Assembly: GCF_015353075.1 (NCBI RefSeq)
Contig: NZ_CP064191.1
Coordinates: 372,001-436,000 of the forward strand
Length of the DNA: 64,000 nt
Origin: Rhizobium sp. 007
GTDB taxonomy: Bacteria; Pseudomonadota; Alphaproteobacteria; Rhizobiales; Rhizobiaceae
Reading direction: 5' to 3'
How positions within the stretch are numbered: the stretch's first letter is position 1; each line of letters starts with the position of its first letter. Shown here in pieces: positions 819-18,154 of this stretch. The position numbers were made by a program, and so were the translations under genes. The notes under the pieces are model-generated. The model made no database searches and was not told the DNA's origin. It was given only the letters and a program-made list of their open reading frames with translations.

Positions 819-3800
819 TCACCTCTCCTCGGCGGGTGTTGTCGGCGAACTGTTCAAGGCTCTCGATAACATGCGTGCCAGAACTTGGCGGTTTTCTGGG
901 TTGCTCATCATCGTTTCGTGATTGCCTGGAACTGAAACTGCATGAATGGCCGCCGGACCCAAAATTCGGTCCCAGCCACGCATGAGTGATTTTGCCTCTG
1001 GGCCGATCGAGCTCTTGCCCTGCACACGACGACTGGGGAAAGGATCAGCTGCATAAAACTGATGTATCTCAATTGGTAGGGCTGGAACTCGATACGATCG
1101 CAGTGCCCTGTGAAATTGAGCGACTCTTTCAGACATCAGAACGTCATTGCGGATGTCACGATCCGGAGGTATCGCCCCGATTTGCTGCGCCTTTTCAAAC
1201 AACTGAGCAACTGAACTTTGTCCAGCAAATTTCTCCAACACTTCGAACCGCTCATCATCTAAAGACTCGAGAGGCTCGAAGATCATCTCTAATGCTAATT
1301 GGGCATCCGACCTGCTCGATGGATTTGCAGGTAACGTGACATCGATGAACGCCATAAATGAGACAGCTTCCCCGCGACTTAGCAAGTGTTTGGCTAGCGC
1401 ATAAGCCAAGATTGCCCCTGAGGAGTAACCAGCGAAGCGATACGGGCCCTGCGGCTGAATCTCTCTAATTGCGAGGATTACCTCCGCGGCGATCGCATCG
1501 AGAGTTGGTTGACAAACTTCATTGAAAGACGGCCATGGCAGAGCATAGATAGGGCAGTCTACGTCCATTTCTTTTGCCAAAGTGAGGACATACGAATAAT
1601 CTCCGTAACCTGTCGGAACAAAGAAGAGTGGCGGTTGAGATCCCGTCGCCCGAACGGGCAGCACTCCAGCAGTATGACGTTGCGGGTCCAACTCAACCCT
1701 CGATGCAAGTTGCTCCAGAACAGGAGCTTGGAAGAGATCGGCGGCATTAAACTTCATTCCAAGATTTAGCGCTCGGCTGAGCAACCGCACCGCCAGGAGC
1801 GAGTGGCCGCCGAGTTCGAAGAAGTGGTCGTGGCGTCCGACGCGCTCGACACCGAGAAGCTCGGCCCAGATCGCGGCCAGCGCCGTCTCGATCCCGCCTT
1901 GCGGCGCCTCATAGGCCGCCCGCGCATAGGCGTCGTCCTCCGGCGCAGGCAGCCCCTTGCGGTCGAGCTTGCCGTTCGCCGTCAAGGGCAGCGCCGCAAG
2001 CCGCACGAATGCCGACGGCACCATGTAGTCCGGCAGCCGCCCGCCCAGATGCGCCCGCAAGGCGCCGGCCAGCCCGCCTCCATCCTCGTCGTCCGATCCG
2101 GCCTCGGGTCCACACACGACATAGGCGACAAGGTGCTTGTCGCCGGTGGTATCCTCGCGTGCCACCACCACCGCCTCGCGCACCCGGTCGTGCTCGCAAA
2201 GCCGCGCGGCGATCTCTCCTGGCTCGATACGGAAGCCGCGGATCTTCACCTGGTCGTCGTTGCGGCCGAGGAACTCCAGATTGCCGTCCGGCAGATAGCG
2301 CGCCAGGTCGCCGGTCCGGTACATCCGCGCCCCTGCCTCATCGCTGAACGGATCGGCCAGGAACCGCTCCGCCGTCAGCTCGGGGCGGTTCAGGTAGCCA
2401 CGCGCAACGCCCGCCCCGCCAATGTAAAGCTCCCCCACCGCCCCGAACGGCACGGGCGCACCATGACCGTCCAGCAGATACACCCGCGTGTTGGCAATCG
2501 GGCGGCCGATCGGGATCGAGGCCATGTCCTCGACAGATTGGGCGATCTCGAATGTGGCACATCCGACTGTTGCTTCTGTCGGTCCAAATTGATTGATCAG
2601 ACGCACGCTCGGAAAACGCTCTTGCCAAAACTGCATGTCTGCCGGAATTAAGGCCTCGCCCCCGACCATGAGTGCTCTTGTCGGAGCCGGTCCTTTGTAG
2701 GCTTCAAGCCGCTTGTTCAGCATGCCTAGATGCGAAGGCGTCAGCTTGACCAGATCATAGGTTTGATCCTCCTCGACAGCGGCAAGCGCATCTATTTGGG
2801 CAATTGGGTTGACAAGACGAAGCCTGGCGCCTGCCAGCAGAGGCCCGAACAAGGTCGTAATGCCGGCATCGAAGCTGAACGACAGCAGCATCAGCGAGCC
2901 GTTGCCGGCTCCTTCGTAATGGCGGCGATCTGACCAATGCAAATAGTTTACCAGGCTCCGATGCTCGACCATGACGCCTTTTGGGGTTCCGGTGGAGCCT
3001 GAGGTGTAGATGACATAGGCGAGATGGCGCGAGGTCAGGCCAAGGGCGTTCGGGTCCGGGTTCGAGGCCGGCAGTTCGGCCCAGGCCGGGGTCGCCGTCT
3101 CCAGATCGACCACCGTCAGATCGACAAGCGCCTCCGGGCCGAGCGCGGCGCGGCCGGCGGCATCGCAAAGCAGCAGCCGCGGTGCGGCATCGTCAAGCAC
3201 CTGCCGCAGCCGCGCGCACGGATAGGCCGGGTCGAGCGGCAGATAGGCGCCGCCCGCCTTGAGGATCGCCAGCAGCCCCACCACCATCGACGGGCTGCGC
3301 TCAAGGCAGATGGCCACACGGTCGTCCGGCTTGACACCAAGCCCGATCAGGTGATGGGCAAGACGGTTGGCCCGCGCGTTGAGCTCGCCATAGCTCAGGC
3401 GCTCGTCCTCATGGACCACCGCCACCGCCTCCGGCGCCTTTTGCTCCTGCGCCTCGAACAGCTCGTGGATGCACCGCTCCGACGGATAGGTCGCCGCCGT
3501 CCGGTTCAGATCCTCCAGCAGATAGGTGCGTTCGTCGGCCGGCAGGATGTCGAGCTCGCGCACCGGCCTATTGGGGGCATGCTCCAGCGCCTCCGCCAAA
3601 TGCTCGAGCACCTGCTGCATGTAGCCGCAGACCCGATCCGCAGACACGGGCTCCACCACCTGCGCCGTCAGGCCGAGCGCCTCGCCAAAATCCTCCACCG
3701 ACAGGGTCAGCGGATAGTTGGTGCGTTCCTCCCCGCCCAGCCATTCCACGCCGGACAGCCCATCCTCCGCTTCGCAGGCGACCGCCGGCGTGTTGTGACG

Positions 3801-17600: not shown

Positions 17601-18154
17601 TCGATCGCGGCTTCATAACATTTAAGGTTCAGGGTCAGTGCGGTATCGGCGGGCGCAATCAGCACTTGGCGCTGAACCACGACGTCACCCGTATCAACAC
17701 CATCATCGATCCGATGCCACGTGATGGCATATTCGGTCTCCTGCGCCAGCAGCGCCCAGGACGTCGCGTGCGTTCCCGCATATCGTGGCAATGGACCGTC
17801 GTGGTAATTGAAAGCACCTTGACGCACTCGCCCAAACACGTCCGGTGGCAATATGAACGGATTGGCAACGGAGAAAATCCAATCTACCGGTTCGGCCTTC
17901 AAAAAAGACGAGAGCTCTTCAACGCTCCCTACACACGGGATGTTGGCGCGAGTCGCCCACTCTGCAAATATGGCGTCGCCGGACAGGGCCGCACCAATGA
18001 CGTGGCCCATCGCCATTGCCAGCTGAGCGCAGCTGATAGCAAGCGTTCCACTGCCAACAACGACGCTGGAGGAGATCGATCGCGCTGCAGGTTGCCTATC
18101 CCGGTCGTCTGATTGGCAGGCACTCCCGCGCGTCGGAGAAGTCCGATATGTCAT
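14516..18154 (-). CDS. NRPS segment 1: formyltransferase loading region and module 1 (F-C'-A-T)
   Basis: Likely true start of the synthetase: ATG at 18154 follows GGAGGG at a 6-base spacing. Residues about 30-205 form a formyltransferase domain with [13 protein letters not shown] and DDGVDTGD, supplying the Asn, His and Asp expected in the active site, as in the loading domain of linear gramicidin synthetase. Residues about 340-600 resemble the C-terminal half of a condensation domain, with no HHxxxDG motif visible. A1 follows (about 16340-14820) with pocket residues D-A-W-T-I-A-A-V-C, almost the classic phenylalanine code. T1 is scrambled by indels near 14560-14760. Prediction: the line starts by loading Phe, possibly N-formylated. 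The frame is also open upstream of 18154 into aminotransferase sequence. Confidence 0.85.
14555..14760 (-). other. Indel-dense T1 carrier domain
   Basis: Compared with the matching stretch at 11385-11580 (T2), this copy has lost bases at several points, for example near 14598, 14611, 14682 and 14735. The carrier motif that reads [17 protein letters not shown] elsewhere is garbled here. This separates module 1 from module 2. If the losses are real, the carrier of the loading module is destroyed and the assembly line is dead. Confidence 0.7.

Follow-up and report, generated by a model that had tools for sequence, protein, structure and literature searches.

A predicted formyl-peptide synthetase line on a symbiosis plasmid of Rhizobium sp. 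007, and its nodulation-linked relatives, many with NifA-type promoters

We analyzed a 64,000-bp stretch of the Rhizobium sp. 007 genome (hereafter the window; positions 372001-436000 of contig NZ_CP064191.1, here C5, which measures 441,467 bp in a genome of 7.6 Mb and five contigs) and characterized a nonribosomal peptide synthetase (NRPS) line that runs on the minus strand from window position 18154 to 819. The line consists of a formyltransferase domain (F), the C-terminal half of a condensation domain (C'), an adenylation (A) and a carrier (T) domain, four C-A-T modules and a thioesterase (TE). It belongs to a family of formyl-NRPS lines that is linked to nodulation and in which NifA-type promoters are frequent, and we regard this membership as a stronger finding than the predicted chemistry of the product.

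The collinear, single-strand domain order read by the initial annotation was borne out by Pfam and window-seeded scans. AMP-binding matched all four pieces of the line with E-values no higher than 1.9e-82, Formyl_trans_N at 4.4e-17 and Thioesterase at 6.8e-23; a chance origin of the domain matches is ruled out by these E-values. Recomputation of the pocket codes from an alignment of 65 A domains gave the same residues as first read for all five (Table 1), which we take to specify Phe (A1), Ala (A2 and A4), Ile/Val (A3) and Asp/Asn (A5). The HHxxxDG motif is present in C2 and C3 (LCL-type), and C4 as well as C5 carry HHLLASRGD plus HHLIGDH. The latter pair is the signature of dual epimerization/condensation (dual E/C) domains, in which a second His motif, HH[I/L]xxxxGD, lies near the N-terminus beside the active-site His motif (PMC1894796). 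Because C4 and C5 carry both motifs, residues 3 and 4 are expected in the D configuration, as had been proposed, and the predicted product order is N-formyl-Phe-Ala-D-(Ile/Val)-D-Ala-Asx. The chemistry put forward initially is a sound prediction. The suggestion that the product may be new can also stand: the order of codes was matched neither by the five other lines of this genome nor by the complete lines fetched from relatives, nor by any other fetched line, many of the fetched loci stopping before a TE.

Table 1. Features of the NRPS line and its upstream region (window coordinates)
Feature	Position	Strand	Remarks
Start (ATG at 18154) and F	17492-18154	-	ArnA-like; N-x-H and D-x-G motifs; profile scans
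C', C-terminal half of a condensation domain	16379-17146	-	Profile scans
A1 and T1	14609-16318	-	A1 DAWTIAAVC (Phe code); in the present sequence the carrier motif of T1 is out of frame
Module 2: C2, A2, T2	11386-14508	-	C2 LCL-type; A2 DLYNNCLTY (Ala-like)
Module 3: C3, A3, T3	8203-11319	-	C3 LCL-type; A3 DAFFLGCTF (Ile/Val-like)
Module 4: C4, A4, T4	4980-8052	-	C4 dual E/C-type (frames broken); A4 DLYNNCLTY; T4 (region broken)
Module 5: C5, A5, T5, TE	855-4829	-	C5 dual E/C-type; A5 DATKMGQVG (Asx-like); TE at 855-1649, GYSSG
Sigma-54 type -24/-12 promoter	19416-19431	-	TGGCAC-N5-ATGCG; form of the nifS, acdS and msi158 promoters (PMC3538637, Table 1)
Three NifA-type upstream sites	19478-19493, 19495-19510, 19520-19535	-	TGT-N10-ACA
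C-terminal remnant of a pyridoxal phosphate (PLP) aminotransferase gene	18197-18736	-	The full-length gene flanks the NRPS of Rhizobium sp. T1470 and T136
Partial phosphopantetheinyl transferase	19666-19872	-	108-aa frame; longer copies adjoin two lines on contig C3

The start of the line had been likened to that of linear gramicidin synthetase. The N-terminal F domain agrees with this comparison, and among solved sequences it is the A domains of LgrA that A1 matches best (E 1.8e-141, in two stretches). The direct F-A junction does not hold: synthetases of the LgrA kind have F followed directly by A, with no condensation domain in the first module, whereas a half-C intervenes in the window line. 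LgrA makes its D-residues with epimerization domains; those of the window line would arise from dual E/C domains. The F domain itself is closer to ArnA, its best match among solved sequences (E 1.4e-20), than to the F domain of LgrA (E 1.1e-12). Aligned with ArnA, it retains the N, H and D residues that are catalytic in formyltransferases. C' covers only positions 192-455 of the 456-position profile and is without the HHxxxDG lobe; it is probably left over from a starter C domain in which F took the place of the N-lobe, and was probably kept as a platform for A1. An AlphaFold model of F-C' had a mean pLDDT of 41 and was not used.

The plasmid-borne, rhizobial nature of the locus, also proposed initially, is supported by the gene content of C5, where nodA (preceded by a nod box) and nifH are found together with a protein that has the GAF/sigma-54-activator/HTH_8 layout of NifA, and by tra/trb genes in the window; the nearest plasmid DNA to the non-NRPS part is from Rhizobium (83-84%). 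The genome holds six F-to-TE lines, two on C5 (with 5 and 2 carrier domains) and four on C3, a contig of 461 kb (8, 17, 7 and 33). Its condensation-domain matches, many of them fragments, number 95, with 85 on C3 by our count. Seven matches to the phosphopantetheinyl transferase family were found; a partial one immediately precedes the window promoter, and others of greater length adjoin the C3 lines C3b and C3d.

The C3 lines have further features of their own. The 33-carrier line (C3:342327-450481) runs in a single direction with mostly Ala/Val/Leu-type codes and many dual E/C domains, its frames being broken mainly between 368 and 450 kb; if real, it would be longer than any NRPS line known to us. 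The eight-module line (C3:120710-147639) alternates LCL and dual E/C domains, a pattern that predicts a formyl peptide with L and D residues in turn, like linear gramicidin.

The sigma-54 type promoter upstream of the window line is accompanied by three upstream activator sequences (UAS). The UAS of NifA is TGT-N10-ACA. It is printed as TGT-N10-AGA in a study of Mesorhizobium loti that gives the sigma-54 consensus as TGGCACG-N4-TTGCW, plus ATGC variants, and reports that lacZ fusions to the nifS, acdS and msi158 promoters required nifA2 in nodules (PMC3538637). The window promoter thus combines a -24/-12 site with upstream sites, as expected of NifA-RpoN control, in the relaxed -12 form only. 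We scanned 4 kb upstream of 53 F copies, each with at least 1.5 kb of upstream DNA, for the exact consensus TGGCACN5TTGCW, for a relaxed form with WTGC at -12, and for UAS 60-220 bp further upstream, using mononucleotide shuffles as controls (200 runs for the exact consensus). The exact consensus was found on the gene strand of 23 of the 53 copies, in 12 distinct sequences (shuffles: mean 0.10, maximum 2), and the relaxed site in 40 (mean 0.53). A relaxed site with at least one TGT-N10-ACA was found in 23/53, or 17/47 outside this genome (mean 0.017, maximum 1).

Within Rhizobium sp. 007, a sigma-54 site with UAS lies less than 4 kb upstream, on the same strand, of all six lines. On both strands of C3 and C5 this joint motif occurs ten times, six of them before the six lines, against a maximum of three in 20,000 random sets of six places. 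The upstream block of C3a, C3b and C3d is 94-99% identical in DNA to that of the window line, so these promoter sites were inherited together. Of the other four joint motifs, one precedes a frame at 48.4 kb that is P450-like by eye and matches no Pfam family; the remaining three stand before genes for an M16 peptidase, an OmpW protein and an omptin. The peptidase (C5:71789-74821) and the omptin outer-membrane protease (C5:310511-312016) could possibly serve as defences against host peptides. Control of the window line by a nod box or tts box was rejected, the best sites in 3 kb having 15 and 7 mismatches, respectively, to the consensus sequences, with background medians of 17 and 8; the nod box of nodA has 2 mismatches to the nod-box consensus.

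Using two F-C' peptide patterns, we found 41 loci in GTDB contigs, confined to Rhizobium, Sinorhizobium/Ensifer, Mesorhizobium and Bradyrhizobium. Plasmid records matching at E 1e-80 (57 in total) belong to Bradyrhizobium (23), Sinorhizobium (13), Rhizobium (11), Mesorhizobium (3), Mycetohabitans (4), Paraburkholderia (2) and Allorhizobium (1); six fall under 60% identity, namely the four from Mycetohabitans, one from R. lusitanum and that of A. ampelinum S4. The order F-C'-A-T-(C-A-T)n-TE is constant across relatives, while lengths and codes vary, and C' also follows F in 51 loci that were selected with queries containing C'. A set of 23 F-C' copies, three of which belong to this genome, represents Rhizobium, Sinorhizobium/Ensifer, Mesorhizobium and Bradyrhizobium and has a mean column identity of 80%. 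A four-module line (Pro-like, Ile/Val-like, Ser-like and Phe codes; C types LCL, LCL, dual) is common to Paraburkholderia sabiae, Rhizobium jaguaris and Mesorhizobium sp. AR07. In a tree of F-C', built by a quick method without bootstrap and restricted to loci whose F and C' share a frame of 520 residues or more, P. sabiae falls among the alpha-rhizobia, with four Bradyrhizobium rows (SH-aLRT 99), a position that fits transfer between classes. We found no description of a formylating rhizobial NRPS in the literature searched (PMC10434180, PMC12815270, PMC3102044, PMC10212144 and PMC10587159 among it), from which subscription journals were mostly absent.

For the link with nodulation, we searched each genome sample for both F-C' and NodA (PF02474); only the best candidates per genome were scored (3 to 14 for F-C'), so F-C' copy numbers are lower bounds. 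The resulting figures, which are inflated by relatedness and shared plasmids, show an association rather than a cause. At E 1e-20, 21 of 297 genomes of the family sample matched, three over full F-C' and all three with nodA, on a background of nodA in 19/297 (two weak). The order sample gave 3/397 matches at E 1e-90, all with nodA (nodA in 9/397); the match of one of its genomes, Bradyrhizobium G330, extends over C' only. In Bradyrhizobium 23 of 98 genomes matched, with nodA in 23/23 compared with 30/75 of the others (Fisher p 4e-8); 18 matched over F and five over C' only, and p is 3e-6 with the 18 alone. A genus sample of three genomes had F-C' in 1/3 and nodA in 3/3. All 35 named genomes behind the 41 loci have nodA, and nodA is on the same plasmid record as F-C' in 6/10. 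On shared contigs of Bradyrhizobium the line lies 56-99 kb from nodA in five genomes and megabases away in one. C5 itself has an open nodA at 126086 and a second, degenerate copy with its own nod box at 336654-337306. By contrast, the weaker F matches in 18/297 family genomes seem to form another class, with nodA in 2/18. Two of these 18 loci were inspected, and both encode one-module proteins (L117:3451-8124 and L118:515-5197) in which a formyltransferase is followed by an A domain, split by an inserted luciferase-like monooxygenase, and then by T.

An experimental anchor is offered by blr2108 of Bradyrhizobium diazoefficiens. Two Bradyrhizobium genomes, G330 and G682, contain a C'-A line without F, located 98.6 and 94.5 kb from nodA and preceded by a sigma-54 site with one UAS. 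The neighbours of this line in G330 are an ectoine-synthase-like cupin upstream and, downstream, a CRP gene on the opposite strand. The same order is given for blr2106 (cupin), blr2108 (NRPS) and bll2109 (CRP) (PMC8632152), and we take the G330 line to be of the blr2108 kind, with the difference from the window line that G330-type lines lack F, begin with a Pro-like A domain and have other modules. According to published work, blr2108 is 39-fold up in soybean bacteroids, is marked as a NifA+RpoN target and has its protein up by log2 6.5 in microoxia (PMC6515984); its value in nifA-mutant nodules is log2 -4.6, as we read a flattened Table 3 (PMC4926349).

The modules of this genome bear traces of A-domain core exchange, a known route of NRPS evolution (PMC8097286). 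We compared cores and flanks among 61 A domains of this genome, four A domains outside the family having been set aside. Pairs with the same code have median DNA identities of 98.4% in the core and 90-93% in the flanks, and pairs with different codes 42.3% and 82-84%, respectively. In the window, modules 4 and 5 differ by a divergent A core set between difference-free stretches on both sides. Such exchange between near-identical modules would make the peptides differ between strains.

Taken together, we consider it probable that the window line is a nodule-phase formyl-peptide synthetase, driven by NifA and sigma-54 on a symbiosis plasmid and diversified by A-core exchange. The sequence itself shows the promoter with its activator sites, the order of the domains, the pocket codes, the motifs of the dual E/C type and the TE, and from these the following route can be proposed. 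NifA with sigma-54 RNA polymerase would transcribe the line in root nodules. A1 would load L-Phe, which F, judging from the presence of this domain, would formylate on T1 from formyl-tetrahydrofolate; C2 and C3 would add L-Ala and L-Ile/Val, the dual C4 and C5 would epimerize residues 3 and 4 ahead of condensation, and A5 would contribute Asp or Asn. The TE would then free the pentapeptide, probably as a linear acid because its N-terminus is capped; the [M+H]+ values calculated for the predicted linear acids are 564.2664, 563.2824, 550.2508 and 549.2667. The peptide would most likely act inside the nodule, since NifA acts there, on host cells or rival bacteria.

Several observations weigh against this interpretation. 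The exact sigma-54 consensus precedes none of the six lines of this genome (0/6) and occurs on the opposite strand in 7/53 upstream regions; the relaxed -12 form was chosen after the window promoter had been inspected, and was later matched among the M. loti promoters (PMC3538637). The relaxed site is absent from 13/53 upstream regions, including those of the near relatives L109 and L112 (less than 4 kb covered there), and the 53 copies are related, comprising six lines of this genome, one locus in duplicate (L089 and L116) and two copies from one species (L060 and L111). About 1.26 kb of DNA, holding the aminotransferase remnant and other remains, separates the window promoter from the start. 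The blr2108 transcript is reported as unchanged in free-living microoxia (PMC6515984). The link to blr2108 is drawn by gene order rather than sequence. The gene nodA is missing from 4/10 plasmid records with F-C', distant F-C' lines occur in Mycetohabitans and Allorhizobium ampelinum, which are not known to be nodulators, and F-C' lines at 38-44% identity are found in bacteria that are not known to nodulate. These distributions, with a nodA link that could be hitchhiking, would suit an ordinary soil-phase antibiotic or siderophore-like NRPS merely travelling with symbiosis plasmids and islands. Such an origin seems improbable given the NifA/sigma-54-type promoters, the reported bacteroid induction and nifA dependence of blr2108 (PMC6515984, PMC4926349), and the window itself, whose scanned open reading frames included neither a recognisable dedicated exporter nor a siderophore receptor (C5:362-372 kb lies outside the annotation).

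Two further alternatives concern the line itself. F might be idle on the aminoacyl carrier, in which case the peptide would be unformylated and F-C' would be a structural cap; the affinity of F to the sugar enzyme ArnA rather than LgrA points this way, as do the blr2108-kind lines, which lack F in 3/3 loci with upstream sequence and in this respect also speak against the nodule-phase formyl peptide. We give little credence to such a cap in view of the retained N, H and D positions and the conservation of F-C' across four genera groups. As sequenced, moreover, the line is split into at least four open pieces (14519-18766, 7591-14625, 5195-7045 and 822-5609), the carrier motif LGGHSL can be read in frame in T2 to T5 but not in T1, breaks fall in C4 and in the A4/T4 region, and the upstream aminotransferase and phosphopantetheinyl transferase are both remnants. 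This copy could accordingly be a decaying pseudogene that yields no peptide, even if the family is active elsewhere. The DNA of C4 and C5, however, differs by 21 substitutions and by 12 gap runs that fall without exception in C4, with long difference-free stretches flanking the gapped patch. Because the deletions are one-sided within a near-identical repeat, uncorrected consensus error appears to fit better than decay; the codes of all five A domains are intact. We therefore regard decay as rather unlikely. Among relatives, Sinorhizobium medicae ml2 has a line in a single frame of 41.6 kb, and Rhizobium sp. T136 one of 24 kb.

The nodule-phase reading can be compared with two further known systems. 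The NRPS WP_013428717.1 of Mycetohabitans rhizoxinica plasmid pBRH01 shares the order F-C'-A-T-dual E/C-A-T-TE and belongs to an endosymbiont; it differs in having 43% identity in F-C', two modules and a fungal host. The NifA-RpoN operons of M. loti R7A share the promoter form, and an OmpW gene and a diterpenoid operon among them resemble other NifA-type sites on C5; they differ in that no NRPS is present in the part of the table covered (PMC3538637).

Elsewhere in the window, an ABC transporter at 21-27 kb resembles a sugar importer. Positions 44734-63929 form a conjugation region that encodes a type IV secretion system coupling protein, TraH, Trb/VirB proteins, a LuxR-type regulator and a MobA/MobL relaxase-helicase, the last of which has a further match to the BID domain of Bartonella effectors.

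More broadly, and more tentatively, NifA-switched formyl-peptide lines of 2 to 33 modules may be common to several rhizobial genera, including a beta-rhizobium, where they would make strain-specific D/L peptides in nodules, diversified by A-core exchange and plasmid transfer, as a chemical dialect with the host or against nodule rivals. NifA is known chiefly for nif and fix genes; if the proposal is true, these lines would be a largely unrecognised output of the nitrogen-fixation regulon. A nodule-phase peptide output across many rhizobia would add a layer of host-symbiont chemistry, and the near-identical modules with swapped A-cores would provide a natural series useful for NRPS engineering.

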